Below, piece by piece: positions 3,198-30,883 of a stretch of 30,883 nucleotides of DNA. Both the position numbers and the translations under genes were made by a program. Below the pieces are notes generated by a model. That model saw only the letters and a program-made list of their open reading frames with translations, had not been told where the DNA came from and did no database searches. Numbering within the stretch: position 1 is the first letter of the stretch; the number at the start of each line of letters is the position of its first letter. Origin of the DNA: a virus. Location: positions 1-30,883 of IMG/VR virus record IMGVR_UViG_3300030118_003397. One strand, written 5' to 3'.

Positions 3198-3440
3198 TTA
3201 CCGCTTCCGTCTGACCATACCGCCTTTGGCTTTCTTGATCATTCCACCCTTGGCTTTCTTGATCATTCCACCCTTGGCTTTCTTGACCATAGATCCTTTA
3301 GAACGTCTGACAACACCACCGTTCATCTTCTTGATCATTCCACCCTTGGCTTTCTTGATCATTCCACCCTTAGCTTTCTTGATCATTCCACCCTTGGCTT
3401 TCTTCATCATGCCGCCTTTGGCTTTTTTGCGACCTGGCAT
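3198..3440 (-). CDS. KKAKGG octapeptide-repeat basic protein
   Basis: An 80-residue protein made almost entirely of nine copies of an eight-residue unit, consensus M-I-K-K-A-K-G-G. Units 5 and 6 are degenerate (MIKKMNGG, VVRRSKGS), and the protein ends MVRRKR. The DNA shows a matching 24-base tandem repeat at about 3220-3430. The protein has no acidic residues and no hydrophobic core, so it is probably unfolded and nucleic-acid-binding, resembling a histone tail. An AAGGAG ribosome site lies nine bases ahead of the ATG. It sits in the head-gene cluster just upstream of the gp4-like adaptor, which suggests a packaged or assembly role. Function is inferred only. Confidence 0.75.
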   Translation of the reverse strand: MPGRKKAKGGMMKKAKGGMIKKAKGGMIKKAKGGMIKKMNGGVVRRSKGSMVKKAKGGMIKKAKGGMIKKAKGGMVRRKR

Positions 3441-11288: not shown

Positions 11289-11599
11289 TTTCTACTCATC
11301 CATGCTGTTGTTCCCATGTATGCACCTACAATACCCGCGCCCGATATATAAAAAAGATTACTAATGTCTGACAAAGCTTGCACTCGCTCTATCGGTACAA
11401 AGAACATTGCGGCTGTAAACGCGCCCATAGCAATTAATGTAAATCTTGCCATACGCAGTTGCGCTAAATTTTTGCGTAATGCGGTTTCGGTTTCTTTGAT
11501 GGCCTTAACGTGAGATAGCTCTTCATCACTTACGATGCCGTCTCCGTCTTCATCGTATTCATTATAGATAGATTCTCTCTGAAGTTTTTTCTGAGCCAC
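11285..11599 (-). CDS. EF-hand membrane protein beside the holin
   Basis: A 104-residue protein with one canonical 12-residue EF-hand loop (DEDGDGIVSDEE, residues 16-27; ligands D16, D18, D20 and E27), then a helix and two membrane segments (FTLIAMGAFTAAMFFVP at about 54-70; FYISGAGIVGAYMGTTAW at about 84-101). EF-hands bind calcium. Similar proteins next to GTA-type holins are frequent in marine phages. The GTG start shares a base with the upstream stop (TAGTG). A calcium-sensitive partner of the holin is plausible but inferred. Confidence 0.8.
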   Translation of the reverse strand: MAQKKLQRESIYNEYDEDGDGIVSDEELSHVKAIKETETALRKNLAQLRMARFTLIAMGAFTAAMFFVPIERVQALSDISNLFYISGAGIVGAYMGTTAWMSRK

Positions 11600-11787
11600 T
11601 AGGACATCTCTCCCTGAATCTGGTTAGTGGGTACGCACACCACATTGTAGTTTACAAACGGCTTACCAATCTTTTGAACCATCTGTTCTCCTGCGTACAG
11701 GCACTCTATGTGCGTGGAATGTATCTCAAGAATCCTAAAATAAAATGTCATGTCTGCAACAAAGATTCCCATCAACACCCAAGACAT
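11599..11787 (-). CDS. Small membrane-anchored protein
   Basis: A 62-residue protein starting at the ATG at 11787 (MSWVLMGIFVADMTFYFRIL), with one N-terminal hydrophobic segment followed by a polar Cys-containing tail (THIECLYAGEQMVQKIGKPF). A longer frame to 11850 overlaps the upstream gene and has a worse start. AAGGGAAGG sits directly before the start, coupled as TGATG. The build (short anchor, soluble tail) could be a lysis accessory or spanin-like protein, but no lipobox is present. Confidence 0.65.
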   Translation of the reverse strand: MSWVLMGIFVADMTFYFRILEIHSTHIECLYAGEQMVQKIGKPFVNYNVVCVPTNQIQGEMS

Positions 11788-12236
11788 CACCTTCCCTTCA
11801 TAGCAATGATAGCAAGTAGGAGCCAAATGCCACCAGCGACGACCAAGCAACCAGCAAGAACAGCAGCAGTATAGATAAGTCCGTCCTTAATGGCTTTTTT
11901 GCGAGCCAGTTTTTTAAGCCTTTCACGCTCCGCCGCCTTCCTCTTCATCTCTTTCCGGTTGCGAATGAATGTCTGGTAATCGTCCCAAAGGCCGGGTCGC
12001 CCCGCGTAAATAAATAATTGTTTTATTTCATATTCTTTCTTTTTTATGTTTTCTAAGGCCCAAAACGCCTCCATTGATCCTTGCTCGGATTCTTTTTCTA
12101 ACTCATCGTGGGCATCGGCTAACTGAGTCAGTTGCTTTCCCATCTGACCAACAGATGTGACATGACCGGCAAGCTCCTTGATACCATTGATCGCCTGATT
12201 CGCAAGCTCGATGGCGGCAATGGCCTCAAAAATCAC
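11787..12236 (-). CDS. Helical protein with C-terminal membrane anchor
   Basis: A 149-residue protein. Residues 1-115 are predicted helical and partly coiled-coil (AIAAIELANQAINGIKELAG; QLADAHDELEKESEQ), ending in a very basic stretch (RKEMKRKAAERERLKKLARK). Residues of about 118-146 form one strong membrane segment (GLIYTAAVLAGCLVVAGGIW). The GTG start has AGGAG eight bases upstream, inside the end of the portal gene. It stands between portal and lysis-type genes; an internal virion or lysis accessory protein is possible. Confidence 0.75.
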   Translation of the reverse strand: MIFEAIAAIELANQAINGIKELAGHVTSVGQMGKQLTQLADAHDELEKESEQGSMEAFWALENIKKKEYEIKQLFIYAGRPGLWDDYQTFIRNRKEMKRKAAERERLKKLARKKAIKDGLIYTAAVLAGCLVVAGGIWLLLAIIAMKGR

Positions 12237-12240
12237 AGCA

Positions 12241-14643
12241 CTATCTCCTGTTCTGCTGTGCCTGAATCCTTGTAAGGTTTACTTCAGCACGTTGATCTGC
12301 GATATCCTCTTGTAGCTCTAATCGAGCAGAGTCCGTAGCGGCACGTTGCTGTAATTTTTCTCTTTCGAGTTGCAGGTTACTAGCATCTAACTGAGCACGA
12401 CGCTCAGACTCTGCCGCCCGAATCGCAAGTTCTTTTTGTCGTATATCGACTAAAGGATCTTGCTTTTCACCCTGTTGTGGTTGAAGGCTTTGTAGGAAGT
12501 CTGTGACTAACTGAGCCTCTATCTGAGCTACTCGTGATTCCGTTTGCTCTACCGGAATAGGTGGAGCTATCTGAGCAAGCTCTGGATCCATGTTTGCCAT
12601 AGCATTCTCAATCTCTTGCTGTGCAATCATTCTGGATTTAAATGCTATGTGTTCCATACAGTGTGATATCAACATCCCAAACACACTTGGCGATGCCTGA
12701 ACCAAAGGCGTAACCAGTAAAGCAACGTGTGTTGCCATGTGTGCATCGTGATCTTGTTCAGGAAAAACCGTCAATAATTGACCTGCCAAGGCCCTGGCAT
12801 TTTCAATACTAGGATCGGTTGGTTGTGGTTCTGGAGCGGGCGGTAGTATTTCGTCAATGTTCTGCACCTCTAAAGCTTGATACATTCTTTTGTACGCCGC
12901 CTGTAGATTGTGCAGTTGTGGGTTAGATTGTGCTAATTGAAGTTGTGTTTGTGCCAGCGTTATACGCTGTGCCATTGAAAAAATATTGGGGTCAGAGACC
13001 GGAAGAACATCAACACGGTCATCAAAATCAGACTGCTTGATTCCTGCATCAACACCTGTCGCGTATGGATACGACGGTGGCATGTTGTCACGAATCAGTC
13101 GGGCAAGAATCCTAAACTCTGTTTTCTGTGCGTAATGCAACCGCTTGTGTATAGCCGACATGACTTTCATGCCACGCTCAAGCAATGCAACAGTGGTTCC
13201 AACCGGCTGTTGTTGCGAACTTGGTGATCCTGTTTGTTGATCTGCTATCGAAACAAACCGACGGCCAGACTCAATCAAAACACCCAGCAACTGCGCCAAC
13301 GTGCCAGAGGGCTCTTTGTACGGTAGCGGTATAATACTGTTTCTTATATCACCGCCAGGTGCATCGATATCTCGAAACTCGCCCGGTGCTATTGGCTCAT
13401 CGTCATTACGAACTCTGATACCACGGGCTTTGAAACCTGACGGCAGGTTCGCTAGTGTACCGGCATCGATCAGTTGTCTCAGTATTGAAGTGGCTGCTTT
13501 ACCCAAACCTCCAATCATGTGAATCAGACCAAAGCCATAGAAACCAAGACCGGGCAAGAACTTGTAGTGAACGAAGTACGACACCTTCTGTTTTAGTGCG
13601 TCGTTCTCCTCGTAGTTCCTGCGTATCGCTAGAACTTCTCCGCTACCCTGATCGAGCGTGACGATATAAGGTAGCTTGATTCCTGTGGGTTCCCCCATCT
13701 TATTAACGTCTTCAAAGCCCTCGATATCAAGATTGACGTGCATCTCAAGCACTGTATAAAGATCTTCCGTAGCACTTTTTTCAACGCCATCTAGCTCGTT
13801 TACTTTCGATTTGACCGGGTCAGAATCTGCCTCATAGTCAGCCGAAATATCAATATCTCTGTAGAAACCAGCAACCTGTAACTTACGAATTTCATTTTCG
13901 TCCATGCGAAGAACGTGTGTAATACGCGACGCAGTCGCAAGATCACTAGCCGCATAAGAAACGACCAAGTCCTCTGCTGGTATGAATTTAGAAACGGGTC
14001 GTTGTTTTGCTTCATCAAAGTAAACCTTCTTAAACGTTGAACCTGATAAAGGTAGATAGAACAACATCTGATCGGTATCTGGATCGAACTCTTCCATGAC
14101 CTCCATCAGCATGTAGTTCATAAAATCTTTGACGCGAACAGCTTGTGCTTCTTTCTCTGGATCCGCTGTGCCCAATACGTTTGTGCGTACCGGCCCGCCA
14201 GCGGGTAATAATTCTTTGTATGCCTGTGCCTGAAACTGTGTTACTGACTCTGCGATGATCGGGTGCGTGACTCCTGACGCTCCTTGAAAGGGCTGTGTCC
14301 GCTCCTCATACTGGACTCCCAAGAGGTCGAGTCCTTTTGTATATCCCTCTTCCCACTCTGATCTTGAGTCTTGGTCACTTTCGTATTGCTCTCTGAGCTC
14401 GGACGAAAGCTCACCCAAGATAGTATCGTCAAGAGCTTCTGCCAAATTTGCATTGTGATCGTACTCCTGCACCTGAGTCATCATCTGTTCTTGTATCGCT
14501 TGAACGATGGCACCCTCTGGTCCTTCTATAATCTCTGCTCCACCAGCAAAGTCCTCGACCTGTGGTACTTCAACTTCGACACCAGCCACTGCTTCTAATG
14601 CAGGATCGACCATCGCGTTCATTTGATTGGGAGGTACAGACAT
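12241..14643 (-). CDS. Portal protein
   Basis: An 800-residue protein immediately downstream of the terminase large subunit and coupled to it (TGATG), the usual position of the portal. The N-terminal part is acidic, followed by GVTHPIIAESVTQFQAQAYK and LLPAGGPVRTNVLGTADPEK, a wing region and a stem-clip pattern (VHYKFLPGLGFYGFGLIHMI). There is a long Gln/Ala/Glu-rich helical C-terminus (about 700-800), like the barrel of P22-type portals. The size is close to the 725 residues of P22 gp1. Twelve copies would form the channel for DNA entry and exit. The order of segments fits podovirus-like heads, consistent with the gp4-like adaptor. Confidence 0.85.
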   Translation of the reverse strand: MSVPPNQMNAMVDPALEAVAGVEVEVPQVEDFAGGAEIIEGPEGAIVQAIQEQMMTQVQEYDHNANLAEALDDTILGELSSELREQYESDQDSRSEWEEGYTKGLDLLGVQYEERTQPFQGASGVTHPIIAESVTQFQAQAYKELLPAGGPVRTNVLGTADPEKEAQAVRVKDFMNYMLMEVMEEFDPDTDQMLFYLPLSGSTFKKVYFDEAKQRPVSKFIPAEDLVVSYAASDLATASRITHVLRMDENEIRKLQVAGFYRDIDISADYEADSDPVKSKVNELDGVEKSATEDLYTVLEMHVNLDIEGFEDVNKMGEPTGIKLPYIVTLDQGSGEVLAIRRNYEENDALKQKVSYFVHYKFLPGLGFYGFGLIHMIGGLGKAATSILRQLIDAGTLANLPSGFKARGIRVRNDDEPIAPGEFRDIDAPGGDIRNSIIPLPYKEPSGTLAQLLGVLIESGRRFVSIADQQTGSPSSQQQPVGTTVALLERGMKVMSAIHKRLHYAQKTEFRILARLIRDNMPPSYPYATGVDAGIKQSDFDDRVDVLPVSDPNIFSMAQRITLAQTQLQLAQSNPQLHNLQAAYKRMYQALEVQNIDEILPPAPEPQPTDPSIENARALAGQLLTVFPEQDHDAHMATHVALLVTPLVQASPSVFGMLISHCMEHIAFKSRMIAQQEIENAMANMDPELAQIAPPIPVEQTESRVAQIEAQLVTDFLQSLQPQQGEKQDPLVDIRQKELAIRAAESERRAQLDASNLQLEREKLQQRAATDSARLELQEDIADQRAEVNLTRIQAQQNRR

Positions 14644-16109
14644 CAGTAATACTCTCTATTCCTTGGCACGTACATATCTTCCTCTTCGTCCCCCTCCAGT
14701 GAGATGAACCCACCTTGACGAAAACGAATCAGAGCCATAGTCATACTGTCTACGAAGTCATCATGGTCGCCATTAGGAAAGGCAGCACATTCTTCAATCA
14801 CTTCGTCTGCAAACTTCTTTTCTGGAGCCCAAACCATTCCAGCTTCAAAGATTGGTGCAACGGTGTGCATTCGGGTCACTTTATCACGACCTTTGGCAGG
14901 AGTATAATTTAACACGGGTATGCCTGTTCTGCGTAATTCGTCGGTCAGCGGGGTACCAGTTGCCTTGGCCTCGATAATAACCATGTCAGGTTCCCAATAA
15001 TCATACTCTTCTAAAGCCACCTCTTTTAATTCTGGAAAGTTATATCGGCCTCGTCGGGCATCAAGCAGGATGATATGGTCTGCTCCCCCCTCTTCTGGTT
15101 GAAATACGCCCCACGTCGTGATTGCTGAATAATCCGCTGTCTCCTTTTTCGAGAACGCTGTATCATACGATTGCATGATGTATTTGACCGGCGGTACATC
15201 TTCCTTCTCCCATGTTTGCCACCACTCACGTTTGACGATTGCACCCTCTGTGGCGGTAGGTTGCTGTTGCCATTGTGCATTCCACTTGGCAACAGGCAGT
15301 GCGGCCTTGACTTTTAACAAGTCATCCTTGTTCCAGAACTCAGGCCACAGTGGTTTGTCCGACGGCATGATTGCAGGGAACTCCACAACCTCCCATTCGT
15401 CAGACATTACGTCGTTGGCCTGGGCTTTCATTAGTTTTCCGGTGAGATCCTTCGTCCCCCACCGCGTCATTACGAGAATAATCGCGCCACCCGGCTGTAA
15501 ACGTTGGCGAGGGCCTGACGTATACCACTCATAAGCGTTGTCAAACGCTCCTTCACTAAGGGCATCTTGTTCCGAATGAGGGTCGTCAATGATAAACAAG
15601 TCCGCACCGCGACCAGTGACCGCTGCACCGACTCCAGCAGCAAAATACTCGCCCCCTGCTTCTGTACCCCAGCGTCCTGCTGCTTTGTCGTCCGCTTTGA
15701 GCTTCGTTTCTGGGAAGATTTCATAATATGCCTCCGTTTCTATTAGATTACGGACCTTACGACCAAATCTGACCGCTAATTCCGTGTTATGCGTTGCTTG
15801 AATGATCTTTAATTTAGGATTTCGCCCCAAAAACCACGCTGGCATGAGGTAAGAAGCGAATTCTGACTTGGAATGACGGGGCGGCATGTTCACAATCAGC
15901 CGTTTTAACTCCCCAGTTGCTATTTTTTCTAGTTTTTCCGCGATTACACGGTGATGTCTGCCCTCTATGAAGTTCTCATAGACGTGATGTACGAAAGGCA
16001 TGAAGTGATTTTGCGCTTTTTCGCGGGTTGCTATCCTGACTTCGGCCTGTTTGAGGGCCAAAATCTCTTTTAGCACCTCATCAGGCAAAGATTCTAGGGT
16101 CGAAGACAT
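14643..16109 (-). CDS. terL: Terminase large subunit (ATPase and nuclease)
   Basis: A 488-residue protein. The ATPase domain has a Walker A variant MPPRHSKSEF (about 75-84), Walker B LFIIDDPHSE (about 171-180) and the coupling motif VMTRWGTKDL (about 213-222). The RNase H-like nuclease has acidic residues at SYDTAFS (Asp about 315), IIEAKATG (Glu about 380) and DHDDFVDSM near the C-terminus. This is the motor that packages DNA into the prohead through the portal and cuts it. The start is the ATG at 16109 sharing a base with the upstream stop; a TTG one codon earlier is possible. Unusually, the small subunit lies about 7 kb away, beyond the early genes. Confidence 0.95.
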   Translation of the reverse strand: MSSTLESLPDEVLKEILALKQAEVRIATREKAQNHFMPFVHHVYENFIEGRHHRVIAEKLEKIATGELKRLIVNMPPRHSKSEFASYLMPAWFLGRNPKLKIIQATHNTELAVRFGRKVRNLIETEAYYEIFPETKLKADDKAAGRWGTEAGGEYFAAGVGAAVTGRGADLFIIDDPHSEQDALSEGAFDNAYEWYTSGPRQRLQPGGAIILVMTRWGTKDLTGKLMKAQANDVMSDEWEVVEFPAIMPSDKPLWPEFWNKDDLLKVKAALPVAKWNAQWQQQPTATEGAIVKREWWQTWEKEDVPPVKYIMQSYDTAFSKKETADYSAITTWGVFQPEEGGADHIILLDARRGRYNFPELKEVALEEYDYWEPDMVIIEAKATGTPLTDELRRTGIPVLNYTPAKGRDKVTRMHTVAPIFEAGMVWAPEKKFADEVIEECAAFPNGDHDDFVDSMTMALIRFRQGGFISLEGDEEEDMYVPRNREYY

Positions 16110-17248
16110 CAACTACGACGCAATGAGCTCAGACCATACGCTGGAGAGAACTGTTGCGGGGCCCGAAAGCTTGGTTGCAACGATACCGGAGCCAAAGTCG
16201 GCAGTCCTGTGTAGGAATATTGCACAGGATCGCGCGGTTGGTAGTTAGCTCCTGTAACAAAAGGTGTCTGCGCGACCGGTTCTTGGGGAGCAGTCATGGC
16301 ACTTTCAGGAATTAGAGGTGGAATAACCGTTTGAGGTTGATTATCGCCTCTCGATTCTCTGTCCTCTTCCTCACGCTGTCTTTGCATCCTAAAAAGATCA
16401 CCAGCCGCCTCTTCTTGGCCCTTGATATCAAACAATCCAACAGAAGAGGGAGTATATACTCTGTTTTCCTGTGGGTTATACACCCCTGTTATCTGACCTT
16501 GGTCATTTGTTTGTAATTGATTACCCGCAAGATTCGCCTGACGAGCAAATTCTTTGTCTCTATTACTAAAATCTTCAATAATAGTTCTAGCTAATCCAAG
16601 CGGCTGTAATAAATTACGAAGACCTACTTCTGCTTCTCCAGGGATCGGTCTTCCTTCTTCTACCGCTTTCCTAATCTCTTCCTGTCTTTCTCTTTCTTTG
16701 TCTTGAACATCAGGTGGCAAGAACTCAGAAAAATCACCAACGTCGCCTCCATCAAAATCAACAGGTGAATCAGGAGCAAAGGTTTCTGGATAATCGTAAA
16801 TAAAATCGGTAGTCGCAGGTCTTACTTCTGTTCTAGGGCCAAATCGAGCTTTAGTCTGATCGGGTTGTTTTAAAAACTGATCTCGAGTAAGAGCATTAGG
16901 ATAACGTGGACCTGTATCAAACCGAGCTTTGTTTTGCGCTAATGCTTTGTTTTGCGCTAATTGTGCAACTCGGTCTATGCTTGCGGCTTCAATGGCTCCT
17001 TGAACTGCCGCACGGTCCGCTAACGCTTGCCTCTGTTGTCTATTGGTCGTTATATCTCGGTCGCCAGTTGCTCGTTGCGCTCGAGCAAAAGACTCATCAT
17101 CACTAAGATCGCGGCCCCTTTCTCTTGCTTCTCTTGCGGCTTTTTCTACCTGAGATTCATAAGCCGGTCTAGTGTCTCCTGAAAGTCTGACTGTATCGTC
17201 AAAGTCACCAGCAGAACCGCCACCTGTACCTTCTGGATCGCCACTCAT
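16109..17248 (-). CDS. Large disordered protein between HlyC-like and terminase genes
   Basis: A 379-residue protein with a Gly/Asp-rich start, a charged region rich in Arg, Gln, Asp and Glu (ERQEEIRKAVEEGRPIPGEA), one more ordered stretch (VGLRNLLQPLGLARTIIEDF), repeats of ALAQNKA, and a Pro/Gln-rich C-terminus (FRAPQQFSPAYGLSSLRRS). It has few hydrophobic residues overall, so it is probably mostly unfolded. ATGA and TGATG overlaps tie it to both neighbours. It could be an ejected virion protein or a scaffold-like factor. I do not recognise a family. Confidence 0.75.
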   Translation of the reverse strand: MSGDPEGTGGGSAGDFDDTVRLSGDTRPAYESQVEKAAREARERGRDLSDDESFARAQRATGDRDITTNRQQRQALADRAAVQGAIEAASIDRVAQLAQNKALAQNKARFDTGPRYPNALTRDQFLKQPDQTKARFGPRTEVRPATTDFIYDYPETFAPDSPVDFDGGDVGDFSEFLPPDVQDKERERQEEIRKAVEEGRPIPGEAEVGLRNLLQPLGLARTIIEDFSNRDKEFARQANLAGNQLQTNDQGQITGVYNPQENRVYTPSSVGLFDIKGQEEAAGDLFRMQRQREEEDRESRGDNQPQTVIPPLIPESAMTAPQEPVAQTPFVTGANYQPRDPVQYSYTGLPTLAPVSLQPSFRAPQQFSPAYGLSSLRRS

Positions 17249-22713: not shown

Positions 22714-23146
22714 ATAGGGCAAATGCTTGATTAGAAAGGGCGCAGGGTCGCAGGGTTTTGTCCGTTCGATCCCAGATTACTTGAAACACAGAATCAATGT
22801 CCTCGAGCCTATCCCCTTCAGTATGGAACACCCCATCAGAGGCCAAGGTTCTCGCCTCATGGCTCTCAAATAAATATAGGCTACCCGTCCCTTGGTGCTT
22901 GGCTAAGATAAAAGAGAGGCCTCCTGCGTGACTGTGAGAGGTATGCCAAGCGATTTGCTGTGGACTTAATTTCACTTTATTACTTTTGATTACCTTTAGT
23001 TCTATCCAAAACGATATTGATTCCCACACGATATAAAGATCAGGCATCCCTGCTGAGACTCTGTTCTCCAACCTCCAAGCGTAACAATTCCTTGGTAGTC
23101 TCTTGCGAATCGCTGTCCAAAAATTCGCTTCCGGCCCTCGTGACAT
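22712..23146 (-). CDS. VRR-NUC-type nuclease
   Basis: A 144-residue protein starting MSRGPEANFWTAIRKRLPRN. The PD-(D/E)XK core is visible: LENRVSAGMPDLYIV (the VSAGMPD motif with Asp about 36), FWIELKV (Glu49 and Lys51) and LSPQQIAWHTSH, followed by GGLSFILAKHQGTGSLYLFE. VRR-NUC proteins are small nucleases, often linked to recombination or Holliday-junction processing; phage versions often stand beside terminase genes. I prefer the ATG at 23146 (GGGAG upstream) to 23173. The gene overlaps the terminase small subunit by 107 bases in another frame. Its last residues are encoded by CGCAGGGT repeat units. Confidence 0.85.
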   Translation of the reverse strand: MSRGPEANFWTAIRKRLPRNCYAWRLENRVSAGMPDLYIVWESISFWIELKVIKSNKVKLSPQQIAWHTSHSHAGGLSFILAKHQGTGSLYLFESHEARTLASDGVFHTEGDRLEDIDSVFQVIWDRTDKTLRPCALSNQAFAL

Positions 23147-23609
23147 CTTTGAATTCTCCCTCAATGAATGCATGCGGATATCTTTTCTGAAGATCAGCTA
23201 GTCGTCCTATGATTTCCTCTCTCGTCATATCATCTATTCGGTTGACTGTTTCTCTTCTGTCGATTGTCAATCCACCCAACGCGGATCGAATTTTTTCTGC
23301 ATTGATTGCCGCTGAATACTGACCAACGTCCTCCGCACCTTTTGACAACTCAGATAGTCTTTTCATTTGACCAATCAAAGTCACTCCGTACTGGCGTTCT
23401 CTTTCCTCCCTTAACTCTTTTATGTGGTCTACTACGTGAGGGTAATCCTTTCCATTTAACAAAACAGAGGCTGTTTTCGGAGCCACATTCACAGAAAATC
23501 CTGCCTTCCTCGCACACTCTGCATTTGAATAGATACCCTCAACAATCAGTTTACAAAACTCTCTCTGACGATTTGTCAGCTTGCGTTCTGTCGTAACACT
23601 CTTCGACAT
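23040..23609 (-). CDS. terS: Terminase small subunit
   Basis: A 189-residue protein with an N-terminal helix-turn-helix region (LTNRQREFCKLIVEGIYSNA, then ECARKAGFSVNVAPKTASVL) followed by NGKDYPHVVDHIKELREERE and GQYSAAINAEKIRSALGGLT. This is the typical pattern of Terminase_2-type small subunits, which bind the packaging site and feed DNA to the large subunit. AAGGAAAGG precedes the ATG. The last 35 residues or so overlap the nuclease gene. The separation from the large subunit by about 7 kb of oppositely oriented early genes is unusual. Confidence 0.85.
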   Translation of the reverse strand: MSKSVTTERKLTNRQREFCKLIVEGIYSNAECARKAGFSVNVAPKTASVLLNGKDYPHVVDHIKELREERERQYGVTLIGQMKRLSELSKGAEDVGQYSAAINAEKIRSALGGLTIDRRETVNRIDDMTREEIIGRLADLQKRYPHAFIEGEFKDVTRAGSEFLDSDSQETTKELLRLEVGEQSLSRDA

Positions 23610-23739
23610 ACCTTTCCTTATAAGGGTTTACTAGCGATTTAATGATACAAACCTGGTTCATTTCGGTCAAAAAACCAACCGTTTTGTTGCATAAATTTTG
23701 GACAGTGATTTTAAAACCATGGTCATTGAGCCAAGAAAC

Positions 23740-23914
23740 GTTACGGATGTTACGAAAATCAATCAAAACGTTACGAGTTGAATTTTTTTTTCTCCAATAT
23801 TTTCAGTCATTTATTTTAATCCGTAACGTCCGTAACGCTCGTAACGCCTCATTTCAAAAAAAAAAATAAATTTTTTCTCCATCTCGCTGACAGACCTTTT
23901 ATACAAATGTTACG
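23740..23914. repeat. GTTACG repeat cluster (iteron or operator candidate)
   Basis: GTTACG occurs on the plus strand at 23740-23745, 23749-23754, 23770-23775 and 23909-23914, and on the minus strand at 23822-23827, 23831-23836 and 23840-23845, the last three with an exact nine-base period. An eighth copy lies at 23592-23597 (minus) inside the terminase small subunit start. A/T runs (about 23781-23792 and 23855-23876) lie within the cluster. Confidence 0.75.
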
Positions 23915-23943
23915 AGTGCCGTGGACATAGTACACAGAAACAC

Positions 23944-23972
23944 TTGATATGTTTTTTAGACTAGTGTAATGT
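23944..23972 (+). promoter_or_regulatory. Sigma70-type promoter for the 24-27 kb genes
   Basis: TTGATA (23944-23949), a 17-base spacer containing TAGACTAGTG, and TAATGT (23967-23972). The words ACACTTGATAT and TAGACTARTGT are shared with the divergent control region near 17890-17935 on the opposite strand. GGAGGACGAGTA and the ATG at 24005 follow. Confidence 0.7.
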
Positions 23973-24004
23973 CACTACTTCATTAATCATTTGGAGGACG
24001 AGTA

Positions 24005-24397
24005 ATGGTAAACCAAACCCAAGCCCCTAGGTACAGAGTTGAAGTGTCTGTCTGTGTATCATCAGCGGAGCCATCAAGAGAACTGAACTGGCCTGTTGAC
24101 ACGATGGGCGAAGCCAAGGCTTTCATCGAAGGTTACAAGGAGGCCGATAGATCTCACATTGTGAGTTCGCTTACATATTCATTTAAGGTCATAGAAATCA
24201 GGGACGTTGTCGCTGTTGTTTCTATTCATACGAAATCTGACGGTGATCGTGATGTCTGTTCACACACCTCAGAGGAAGAAGCAGTTAAACACTTGGAATA
24301 TCTCAAGTCAGAATGTGGGTTATTCAACGATGACCTTGACGATTATGATTGGCATTACGTAACCATAAAAACGGAGCATGAGGTAGAGATCAAATGA
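24005..24397 (+). CDS. Early protein of unknown function, 130 residues
   Basis: The protein has a beta-rich N-terminus (YRVEVSVCVSSAEPSRELNW), a helix with EAKAFIEGYKEADRSH, and an acidic C-terminus (LFNDDLDDYDWHYVTIKTEH). It starts with a good GGAGGACGAGTA site and overlaps the next gene by ATGA. No family recognised. Confidence 0.75.
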   Translation: MVNQTQAPRYRVEVSVCVSSAEPSRELNWPVDTMGEAKAFIEGYKEADRSHIVSSLTYSFKVIEIRDVVAVVSIHTKSDGDRDVCSHTSEEEAVKHLEYLKSECGLFNDDLDDYDWHYVTIKTEHEVEIK

Positions 24398-24997: not shown

Positions 24998-25170
24998 GAG
25001 AAACAATAGAGAAAATTGATAAAGCGTATCAGGGTTTTTTAACTCAACGCGGTCTCCCGCAAATGTGTGCCTACGAATTAATATCTGAGGATTTTTACGA
25101 CGATTACGAACGGCTCGTGATCACCAAGTTTATCGAACTGTATGAAGCGATTGATTCAGAGAAGAAGTGA
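24994..25170 (+). CDS. Small acidic helical protein
   Basis: A 58-residue protein (MRETIEKIDKAYQGFLTQRG; EDFYDDYERLVITKFIELYE). GGAGG lies five bases before the ATG; a TTG start at 24982 is less likely. It precedes the DNA methyltransferase and shares a base with its ATG (TGATG). Confidence 0.7.
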   Translation: MRETIEKIDKAYQGFLTQRGLPQMCAYELISEDFYDDYERLVITKFIELYEAIDSEKK

Positions 25171-26288
25171 TGAGATACGCAACAGTCTGCTCAGGCGTTG
25201 AAGCCTGTTCCGTGGCGTGGGAGCCATTGGGTTGGCAACCAGTTTTCTTTTCTGAGATCGAGGACTTCCCATCGGAGGTTCTCAGCACACATTATCCAAG
25301 CGTCCCCAACCACGGGGACATGACAAACTTTGAGGAGTGGGGTTATGAAAAAGGCTCAATTGATGTTATTTGCGGAGGAACACCTTGTCAGTCTTTCTCC
25401 GTCGCAGGATTGCGAAAAGGACTCAGCGACGACAGAGGCAATCTTGCGCTCACGTTTTGCAGAATGGTTGATCAGTTGCGACCCAAATACTTCATCTGGG
25501 AAAACGTTGCCGGTTGTCTGTCATCCAATGGAGGACGGGACTTTGGTTCCATCACAGGGGCGATGGCAGAATTCGGGTATTCATTCGGATGGCGTGTGTT
25601 TGACGCACAACACTTCGGAGTCCCCCAAAGAAGGCGTAGAGTCTTTCTTGTTGGATGTTTTACAGGACAGCCAGAGCACGTCCGACAAATATTGTTTGAG
25701 CCAGAAGGCGGCAGAAGGAATTCTGCGGAGAGCCAAGAGACGGGGCAAGACTTTGCCCGAAACACTAGAGACGGCACTGAGGTCTTTGATTTCCAACGAA
25801 TTGGTCAGTACGGAACCAAGGGCGTAGGATCGACTTGCATGGCGCGGGACTATAAGGACTCAAAAGACTTGGTCGTTTACGAATACCACGGTCACGATTC
25901 CAGAGTCAAAGAGCTAGGTCAGACGTGTCAGACCGTCACATCGAGATGGGGCACAGGTGGCAACAATGTGCCATTGGTCTCGTTCAGTTCAAACATGTCT
26001 TACCCTGACATGCTCGAGAACGTAGCACCAACGGTCAAGGTTGGTGGCAGTGGGTGCAGTAATCCTCCTGCCGTTGCAACAGAAAAACTGGTGCGTCGGT
26101 TGACACCGATTGAAGTCGAACGGTTACAAGGTTTTCCAGACGATTACACAAATATTCCGTGGCGCGGTAAGACCGCACCGGATAGCCGTCGCTATAAGGC
26201 GATGGGAAATAGCATGGCTGTTCCGGTCATGCGTTGGTTAGGTCAGCGCATTGCTGACCTTGAGGAGGGTAACGATGAAAAAGTTTGA
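25170..26288 (+). CDS. C5-cytosine DNA methyltransferase
   Basis: A 372-residue protein with the ordered motifs of the Dcm family: I (ATVCSGVEACSVAWEPLGW; a Val-Glu replaces the usual Gly-Gly area), IV GGTPCQSFSVAG (catalytic Cys73), VI ENVAGC (111-116) and VIII QRRRRVFLVG (153-162). The target-recognition region contains TSRWGTGGNNVPLV, and the C-terminal motifs are RRLTPIEVERLQGFP and YKAMGNSMAVPV. It methylates carbon 5 of cytosine in a short DNA site. No restriction enzyme is seen nearby, so it is probably an orphan enzyme protecting phage DNA. The start is the ATG at 25170, coupled to the preceding stop. It lies amid tiny early genes. Confidence 0.92.
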   Translation: MRYATVCSGVEACSVAWEPLGWQPVFFSEIEDFPSEVLSTHYPSVPNHGDMTNFEEWGYEKGSIDVICGGTPCQSFSVAGLRKGLSDDRGNLALTFCRMVDQLRPKYFIWENVAGCLSSNGGRDFGSITGAMAEFGYSFGWRVFDAQHFGVPQRRRRVFLVGCFTGQPEHVRQILFEPEGGRRNSAESQETGQDFARNTRDGTEVFDFQRIGQYGTKGVGSTCMARDYKDSKDLVVYEYHGHDSRVKELGQTCQTVTSRWGTGGNNVPLVSFSSNMSYPDMLENVAPTVKVGGSGCSNPPAVATEKLVRRLTPIEVERLQGFPDDYTNIPWRGKTAPDSRRYKAMGNSMAVPVMRWLGQRIADLEEGNDEKV

Positions 26289-29448: not shown

Positions 29449-30024
29449 ATGGATGAGTTTTTTGAAGGCTTGATGGAGGACAAAAATCCATTAGGCGAGG
29501 TCGATGAAGAAAAACTTCGAGAGCTATCAAAAAAAGTTCAAGAAGTTTGGGACGTTAACACTGAGATAGATAAACTTGAATCACAAGTTAAGTTTTTAAA
29601 ACAGCAAAGGAATCGAATCACACAAGACGAAATACCGGCTCTCATGGATGAGGCAAATATGTTAATGGGACGGTTCTCAGTTGGAGAATCTGATGACCAA
29701 GTAGAACTGTCACTCAAGCCATTTGTGTCTGGGAAAATTCCAGAAGCAAATCGAGAGAAGGCGTATCAATGGTTACGTGATAATAACTTTGATTCGATTA
29801 TTAAGAACGATATCACTCTATCTTTTCAAAAACATCAAGATGCAACAGCACAAAACTTGATGTTGGAATTAGAAGAGAAGGGCTATCACCCTGAATTCCG
29901 AACACATATCCACGCTCAAACATACAAAGGATTCATTCGTGAATGCCAAGAAAAGGGTATTGGGATCGATTTAGATTTGTTCGGAGCTTTTGTTGGCCGA
30001 GTCGCTGAGATTAAGAGGAAATAA
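29449..30024 (+). CDS. Phage protein with N-terminal coiled coil, probable replication-module member
   Basis: A 191-residue protein. Residues of about 22-65 form a heptad-type coiled coil (LRELSKKVQEVWDVNTEIDK, then LESQVKFLKQQRNRITQDEI). The remainder is a mixed fold with KAYQWLRDNNFDSIIKND and a C-terminus GIGIDLDLFGAFVGRVAEIK. Proteins with this C-terminal motif occur in marine phages between helicase and DNA polymerase genes by my recollection. It is in the same transcript as the following gene (two bases apart). No catalytic motif is visible; I take it as an accessory replication protein with low certainty. Confidence 0.75.
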   Translation: MDEFFEGLMEDKNPLGEVDEEKLRELSKKVQEVWDVNTEIDKLESQVKFLKQQRNRITQDEIPALMDEANMLMGRFSVGESDDQVELSLKPFVSGKIPEANREKAYQWLRDNNFDSIIKNDITLSFQKHQDATAQNLMLELEEKGYHPEFRTHIHAQTYKGFIRECQEKGIGIDLDLFGAFVGRVAEIKRK

Positions 30025-30026
30025 AA

Positions 30027-30883
30027 ATGAGTAAAGAAGTAGCAAATACAAAAGAAGCATTGCCAGTGGTGTCCACGGTGTTTGATCAACTTATCGAGGA
30101 AGAAGATCTAGGTCTAGACTTCAAGATAGACGAGTTAAAAATACCGTACATAGGTCAAGTGCAAATGGCCAGTAAATGTTTAATCAAGAAAAACGAAAGA
30201 TACATTGAAGGCATAGAGCTTGGTGACATTTACAACAATATTACTGGACAATTTTGGAAAGGTGACGAGGGAATCAAATTCGTTGTCTGTGCTCGAGAGC
30301 GTGTATATTTGGTAAAAAACACATCACCAGAAGGTGGAACATTAGAGCAGCTACCAGAAACTGACGAGCGTGTCAGAAAATTAAAAAGCATGGGACCTAG
30401 GGGTGGCAATCAAATGCCATTGACTGAGGAGACAGAGTTATGCAAGACAGATCGTTTCTACGTTTTGATATTAGATGAAAGCGGTGCTCGTATCCCAGGG
30501 CTTTTAGAGTGTAGTAAGTCAAAACTGGCCGCCTCTGAGCAAACGATGAGTATCATGGCTAATTTAGCAAAGCACAAACGTGAGTGGACAGATGAAGAAA
30601 TTTCGTTTGCCAAGAAACATGGTAAGAAAATTGACAAAGGTCAAAAGCTCACACCAGCGATGTGGACATCTGTCTGGCATTACACATCTGTAGAAGCAGT
30701 AAATAAAGACGGACGACCATATCAAAACTACAAAGTAAAATTCGATAGTCATATCCACATAACAGAGGAAAATACAGGACTTCTTAATGAGATTAAAGAG
30801 TTTGCATCCTCTGTGGTTTCTGGAGATGTTTCTTTAGCTGAAGATAATCCGACTGAAGATTCTTTACGAGAAGAGCCTGAGCA
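30027..30883 (+). CDS. Phage protein of unknown function, probable DNA-replication module (cut at right edge)
   Basis: The frame is open from the ATG at 30027 to the window end, 285 residues so far. The segments IPYIGQVQMASKCLIKKNER, YIEGIELGDIYNNITGQFWK and IKFVVCARERVYLV form a pattern I know from phage proteins next to replication genes, sometimes discussed as single-stranded-DNA-binding-like, but I cannot confirm this. An acidic tail begins at the end (SLAEDNPTEDSLREEPE), a feature also of SSB proteins. GAGGAAATAAAA precedes the ATG. Confidence 0.7.
   Translation, partial: MSKEVANTKEALPVVSTVFDQLIEEEDLGLDFKIDELKIPYIGQVQMASKCLIKKNERYIEGIELGDIYNNITGQFWKGDEGIKFVVCARERVYLVKNTSPEGGTLEQLPETDERVRKLKSMGPRGGNQMPLTEETELCKTDRFYVLILDESGARIPGLLECSKSKLAASEQTMSIMANLAKHKREWTDEEISFAKKHGKKIDKGQKLTPAMWTSVWHYTSVEAVNKDGRPYQNYKVKFDSHIHITEENTGLLNEIKEFASSVVSGDVSLAEDNPTEDSLREEPE

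Follow-up and report, generated by a model that had tools for sequence, protein, structure and literature searches.

Facing arrays of short repeats beside terS in marine tailed phages, a likely replication origin whose words co-vary with the primase

Eight copies of the hexamer GTTACG within 323 bases, gathered around the start of a terminase small subunit gene, raise the question of which process this DNA serves and which protein reads it. The earlier note, drawn from the letters alone, had offered an iteron-type replication origin, a regulator-binding array or a packaging start site as possible answers. The cluster lies in the IMG/VR virus record IMGVR_UViG_3300030118_003397, which was analyzed over its full length of 30,883 bases (the window). 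The window's large terminase subunit (TerL) shows 60–63% identity to its counterparts in phage 023Pt_psg01, Pelagibacter phage HTVC027P and phage DSL-LC04, and 57% to the one in HTVC023P. As the genomes of these four phages measure 58–62 kb, the record is probably a fragment. That the gene beside the array encodes the terminase small subunit (TerS), as the earlier note had it, is borne out by a match to PHROG 51, while the score against Pfam Terminase_2 (24.3 bits) stays slightly under the cut-off of 26.1. The window additionally holds a 24-bp tandem repeat of about nine copies (3212–3429), 66- and 132-bp repeats (309–624) and, in the early region, a C-5 cytosine DNA methylase gene (25167–26288). 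The features of the array region are the following.

23040–23609, minus strand: terS, terminase small subunit, adjoining the array (PHROG 51, E 1.2e-11).
23592–23597, minus strand: GTTACG within the terS reading frame (codons 5–6), probably outside the array.
23740–23775, plus strand: block R, GTTACG at 23740, 23749 and 23770 (spacing 9 and 21), pointing to the spacer; same distances from terS in the relatives L004 and L005.
23776–23821, no strand: AT-rich spacer of 46 bp between the blocks with a T-run at 23783–23791; candidate unwinding region.
23822–23845, minus strand: block F, three GTTACG words in exact nine-base steps (23822, 23831, 23840), pointing to the spacer.
23856–23876, no strand: A-run (23856–23866) and T-run (23871–23876) beside block F; a similar tract is present in many of the relatives inspected and absent in L015.
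23909–23914, plus strand: outlying GTTACG word, matched at equal distance in close relatives; in others, one or two words stand at a similar position.

All eight copies were found where they had been described (23592, 23822, 23831 and 23840 on the minus strand; 23740, 23749, 23770 and 23909 on the plus strand), and the exact nine-base steps as well as the A/T runs in and beside the cluster were recovered too. The position of the first copy inside terS reduces the intergenic array to seven words. Over the whole window GTTACG occurs 22 times, with 10.25 occurrences expected (sd 3.17), a number that none of 100 shuffles reached. Eight copies in 323 bases form the densest cluster among all 6-mers of the window with at least three different letters; when 100 first-order Markov sequences of equal length were examined for their densest 6-mer cluster, it held seven copies in one sequence and at most six in the rest. 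The cluster of seven words plus the in-frame copy is thus real and non-random. An exact 6-mer scan found a facing direct/inverted array at this single place in the window. As in iteron origins, several short direct repeats here adjoin AT-rich DNA outside the coding sequence. Searches for Rfam families and tRNAs found none, and the GC skew yielded no consistent origin signal.

A search with TerS provided relatives, of which 80 were taken, namely the best 80 of at least 585. The spacing, which the earlier note had expected to be conserved if the array has a function, is kept: L004 and L005 carry GTTACG words at the window's own distances, and L007 and L010–L012 nearly so. A strict finder detected facing arrays of ~9-bp words in 65 of the 71 relatives whose sequence extends far enough upstream of terS. 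It detected none in 129 windows drawn at random from these loci and none in 71 shuffled sequences. Four of the six misses show an array by eye (L015, L017, L077 and L079, the latter identical to L386), the remaining two being L019 and L058. The array lies directly upstream of terS in the relatives inspected, and in seven long contigs the exact word was found nowhere else in tandem. The exact 6-mer scan, covering up to 50 kb per record, detected no facing array in HTVC023P, HTVC027P, 023Pt_psg01 and DSL-LC04. The cultured pelagiphage HTVC023P (L085) carries CTAGGAAA repeats, mostly in one orientation, upstream of its terS (11300–11890).

More distant relatives share the layout and differ in the word, with 21 words being distributed over 60 phage contigs. 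This change of words is also seen between phages that are otherwise very similar. Four loci with identical TerS proteins use GTCAACA (L068), GTTCTCA (L069 and L070) and GTAAACA (L076), and two loci with a near-identical TerS use GTACTCA (L077, in which one site deviates from its own word) and GTCCTCA (L083). Among these six loci the flanks near terS are nearly identical, and the spacer and the terS side remain constant while the words of both blocks switch together. The copies within one phage hence mostly change in concert, even between phages with identical TerS. Some arrays are mixed: the two blocks of L345 read GTTACAA and GGGACAA, and L215 combines GTCTTAA with GTCTGAA. L327 and L041 mix similar words in the way L345 does. 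Mixed arrays of the L345 type either reflect a primase that tolerates both words or were caught in transition. Beside the array, a comparison of L068 (1420–2162) with L076 (6882–7616) revealed an extra insert of ~700 bp in one of them at ~98% identity elsewhere in the aligned part, and clustered changes in the 244-aa gene next to the array.

Which protein reads the variable bases? As identical TerS proteins occur with different words, also in L052 and L057 (GTAAACA) vs L056 (GACTCA), TerS does not read them (the TerS readings of L055, L058 and L072 were unreadable, that of L013 was readable in part only). Several other genes were considered and rejected. The 244-aa first early gene of L076 has full-length matches in five loci only, L076 included. 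The 230-aa gene downstream of terS shows few differences, differs between two loci with the same word and is without a match in the window. The gene upstream of terL (window 16109–17248; L076 11853–13430) is highly variable among relatives with a common end SLRRS being kept, and the window gene has no PHROG or Pfam family at E 0.01; the 525-aa gene in this place is hypervariable and of low complexity, and our guess is that it is structural. Genes adjacent to the array that vary as well are the 244-aa gene, which is not present in all phages, and the ORFs at 2710 and 3373 of the contig G002.

The primase stands out in comparisons of close relatives. Between G012 (L146, GTAAACA) and G003 (L131, GTACTCA), the SNF2, DUF7307, 264-aa and helicase proteins are 98–100% identical (helicase 99%; 97% between G002 and G009), the VRR-NUC-like protein and the primase 96% and TerS 93%, so that this pair alone would not exclude TerS. 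When G012, G003 and G013 are compared, the VRR-NUC-like protein shows a few differences that cluster close to its C-terminus. The 19 differences between the two primases are unevenly placed, with seven at residues 9–55, none at 56–382 and twelve at 383–485. The primases of L134 and L136 are likewise 99.7% identical over residues 1–390 and 88.9% over residues 391–507, with identical TerS proteins.

The primases of two relatives, L090 (=G012) and L101 (=G005), were scanned against Pfam and contain an AEP-TOTE domain (PF22548; 55.3 and 73.2 bits vs a cut-off of 27). This domain and a sub-threshold PriCT_1 were the only matches, and no helicase was recognised in the same protein. The window itself contains the beginning of the corresponding gene cluster.

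29449–30024, plus strand: DUF7307 / Pam3 gp33-like gene, start of the replication cluster, 99% identical to the homologue in G005.
30027–30883, plus strand: start of the gene that directly precedes the primase in G005, cut by the contig end; residues 1–285 of 290 align and are 100% identical.

In G005 (L007) this preceding gene ends at 14060 and the primase frame starts at 14123. As the contig end cuts the gene in the window, the window's own primase lies just outside, and all statements on the primase rest on relatives. Those relatives that share the window's word and have a complete primase (L204, L214 and L222) carry R, G and W at residues 470, 480 and 478.

Covariation between words and proteins was analyzed with the word written as G T x1 x2 x3 x4 A and with the primase numbering of L146 (=G012). 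The starting set consisted of 55 loci that carried both terS and primase. Removal of L341, in which no array was visible, and of L250, whose primase breaks off at 158 residues, and addition of seven G contigs gave 60 contigs, some of them nearly identical; L418, L213 and L298 were dropped for their incomplete tails, leaving 57 complete tails. Some of the words were read by eye, at a time when the residue pattern had already been noticed, since the automatic finder returned nothing for L327, L321, L386, L298 and L341 and gave shifted or deviating words elsewhere. Each mixed array (L313, L315, L240, L327, L345, L215 and others) was represented by a single word, and for the position tests TGACTCA was treated as GTACTCA. 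Kinship confounded plain mutual information, with other columns scoring equally high by z, and tests were therefore run within clades. The covariation set comprised 331 pairs of related primases (residues 1–390 at least 60% identical) and 507 columns.

Two primase residues track two bases of the word. Residue 470 co-varies with x3 (phi 0.80) and residue 480 with x1 (phi 0.69), the next best of the 507 columns reaching 0.32 in both cases, and none of 300 within-clade word shuffles attained either value. The best columns of the control proteins were clearly lower. For x1 and x3, respectively, TerS reached 0.43 and 0.31 (55 of the 60 contigs with TerS), the VRR-NUC-like protein 0.37 and 0.44, SNF2 0.33 and 0.32, DUF7307 0.36 and 0.31, and the ATP-binding protein 0.38 and 0.31. 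With best values of 0.31–0.44, the latter four proteins were dismissed as readers.

In a nonredundant set of 44 phages, residue 470 is N/Q in 16 of the 18 with x3=T, K/R/H in 16 of the 18 with x3=C, A/S in six of the seven with x3=A and T in the single phage with x3=G. Residue 480 is T/S in 20 of the 23 phages with x1=A and in two of the 21 with other x1 bases. Residue 478 is R in all 19 phages with x4=C and W in 24 of the 25 with x4=A/G. The pairing of N/Q with A and of K/R/H with G on the opposite strand agrees with the common chemistry of protein-DNA contacts. When single phages were left out, x3 was predicted from residue 470 in 43 of 49 cases, as against 28 by the nearest neighbour and 21 by the commonest base. 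The exact x1 base was predicted from residue 480 in 27 of 49 cases, which equals the commonest base (27 of 49), with A and not-A being well separated. For x2, residue 470 gave a phi of 0.44 in the pair test and fell outside the top four in the within-clade test, where three of 300 shuffles reached the top, and no primase column appears as a convincing reader. For x4, the primase residues 140 and 294 score above 478 and one TerS column reaches 0.60; the association of x4 with residue 478 is confounded with clade.

The rules taken from the 44-phage counts were subsequently fixed in a script and applied to further phages, whose words were then read by eye. Of 73 new loci, nine contained terS and six distinct phages had a readable array. 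L549 had none, the first block of L508 was mixed, and L528 is close to G008, which had contributed to the rules; L488, L490 and L491, with the same tail and the same upstream DNA, were counted once. The word of L488, GATACAA, lacks the usual GT start and was entered as GTTACAA in the leave-one-out test. The rules held in six of six phages for x3, in six of six for A or not-A at x1 and in the five of five that they covered for x4.

The three residues fall into the C-terminal tail of the primase, which AlphaFold2 predicted to be a winged helix for L146 (pLDDT 85.4, pTM 0.73). The predicted elements are helices at 13–26, 53–62 and 70–79 and strands at 83–90 and 96–105 of the tail, corresponding to a helical core and a two-stranded wing, and the prediction for the L214 tail has similar elements (pLDDT 73.1). 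Subtraction of 382 places residue 470 at index 88 in the first predicted wing strand and residues 478 and 480 at 96 and 98 in the second, so that in this model 470 and 480 should lie opposite one another in the hairpin. The primase tail of DSL-LC04 is related, with a shorter wing and no counterpart of residue 470. The tail gave no meaningful Pfam match, no Foldseek match at E ≤ 0.001 and no sequence match to PDB structures at E 1. Its structural matches, all with Z values of at most 7.0, which can mean merely a common arrangement, include TcpK with oriT DNA and the SCCmec Cch helicase; many others are DNA-binding regulators, which we take to be winged-helix proteins. Among the loci searched, with primase-motif hits set aside, no ORF other than a primase carries such a tail, the six left being primases cut by contig ends.

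Altogether, we consider it likely that the array is the replication origin of these marine tailed phages, with iterons that are bound by the phage's own, co-evolving AEP-TOTE primase through its C-terminal winged helix. Of the functions initially put forward, the iteron-type origin is thus the one that gained support, the words co-varying with the tail of the phage's replication primase. The two blocks of ~9-bp iterons, facing each other over the AT-rich spacer, would constitute the origin. The winged helix would contact the words by its beta-hairpin wing, where residue 470 would set x3, residue 480 x1 and residue 478 perhaps x4. In the order of recruitment that we infer, the bound primase would thereby be placed at the spacer, where unwinding may take place, and the helicase and PolA would then start replication there. 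Both are annotated near the primase in relatives, the helicase as a separate gene. A further-reaching reading, which we regard as possible and put forward tentatively, is that of a near-programmable origin. Two to three residues on one primase beta-hairpin would specify the ~9-bp word (at x3 N/Q for T, K/R/H for C and A/S for A; at x1 T/S for A; at x4 R for C). The phages of the lineage would move quickly between mutually exclusive words with their genomes nearly unchanged, and the driving force could be rivals, satellites or nucleases that exploit or target a given word.

The other explanations are disfavoured above all by the identical TerS proteins that go with different words and by the phages with two-word blocks (L345 and L215). 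A pac or cos packaging start bound by the neighbouring TerS would fit the constant position of the array directly upstream of terS, and the likely DNA-binding helix of TerS does differ between phages. Against this stand the identical TerS proteins, both in the L068/L069/L070/L076 set and in L052 and L057 vs L056, and the best TerS columns, which track x1 and x3 much worse than primase residues 480 and 470. Recognition by the cognate TerS, expected at such a site, is thereby contradicted for the variable bases only. We consider the packaging site suggested by the earlier note very unlikely, though TerS may contact the invariant bases.

It appears unlikely as well that the array acts primarily as an operator, at which the primase tail or another regulator would bind the words and control two divergent transcription units, even though it may do so in a second role. 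The array indeed sits between divergently read genes, and initiators of iteron replicons often autoregulate too. Promoter-like sites, however, are not in excess: the early promoter that the earlier note had placed here comes down to one sigma-70-like site on the minus strand in 23500–24100, with 1.5 expected by chance. The reader indicated by the covariation is moreover the primase, whose known role is replication, which would argue against a mainly regulatory site. A hairpin of RNA or single-stranded DNA would let the words co-vary since its arms must pair. Blocks F and R can pair, and the window's stretch folds better as single-stranded DNA than most shuffles (z -2.23; six of 200 as good). 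The blocks of L345 and L215 differ, however, and pairing requires neither the agreement of direct copies within a block nor primase residues that track the word, which makes a hairpin highly improbable as the cause.

If the likely reading of the array as an origin is true, the start of replication would be located for a widespread and mostly uncultured group of marine phages, and origin recognition would be the task of a primase, not of a helicase or separate initiator. The numerous natural pairs of word and primase could then serve directly for working out a protein-DNA recognition code at an origin of replication, and the fast change of origins between near-identical phages would become testable. 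More generally, a repeat array beside terS should not be called a packaging site from its position alone.

Among the papers listed from the open-licence literature, as judged from titles and the beginnings of abstracts, no description of such an array or code was found, and a term search of the HTVC023P-type paper did not find “origin of replication” (PMC9599517). Related principles are nevertheless established in other systems. For the Rep protein of SaPIs and Cch2 of SCCmec, a C-terminal DNA-binding domain of the replication protein is reported to recognise short origin repeats (PMC7581432). The phages studied here would share the use of such a domain as reader, and SCCmec Cch (5dgk, residues 436–553) matched the primase tail weakly (Z 5.8 and 6.4). 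The reader in SaPI and SCC elements is, however, the initiator helicase, whereas here it would be the primase, with the helicase being encoded by a separate gene in the relatives. In PLEs, origin and initiator RepA co-vary among close relatives in a repeated “specificity swapping”, and a phage nuclease is reported to mimic RepA and cut the origin (PMC8263062). PLEs rely on a RepA_N initiator and three semi-palindromic iterons of ~30 bp, unlike the ~9-bp words and the AEP primase in our case. In geminiviruses, each Rep is reported to recognise its own short iterons, which vary even among closely related viruses (PMC12548392). The phages here would parallel this, with short words that change between near relatives and would be read by the phage's own replication protein. 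Geminiviruses are single-stranded circular DNA viruses, unlike the phage here, and their replication protein differs from the phage primase.

A counterpart for the putative reading domain is TcpK, a winged helix that places its beta-wing into the major groove to read the nine-nucleotide tandem repeats of the pCW3 oriT (PMC6137059). TcpK (5vfx) and the primase tail match weakly (Z 6.8 and 6.9), at values too low to tell kinship from a common arrangement, and TcpK is a free-standing conjugation protein at a transfer origin, whereas the domain described here is the tail of a primase. Among AEP primases of mobile elements, to which the phage primase also belongs, the C-terminal winged helices of PolpTN2 and PrimQH have been suggested as origin readers (PMC5862659), and for the NrS-1 PrimPol specific primase recognition sequences are reported, with recognition being assigned to the helix bundle domain (PMC8718748). 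Different from these, the primase analyzed here has an AEP-TOTE domain, and the evidence consists of residue-level covariation together with the switching of words between near-identical phages. Covariation of origin and initiator as well as origin reading by a C-terminal domain are thus already known elsewhere.
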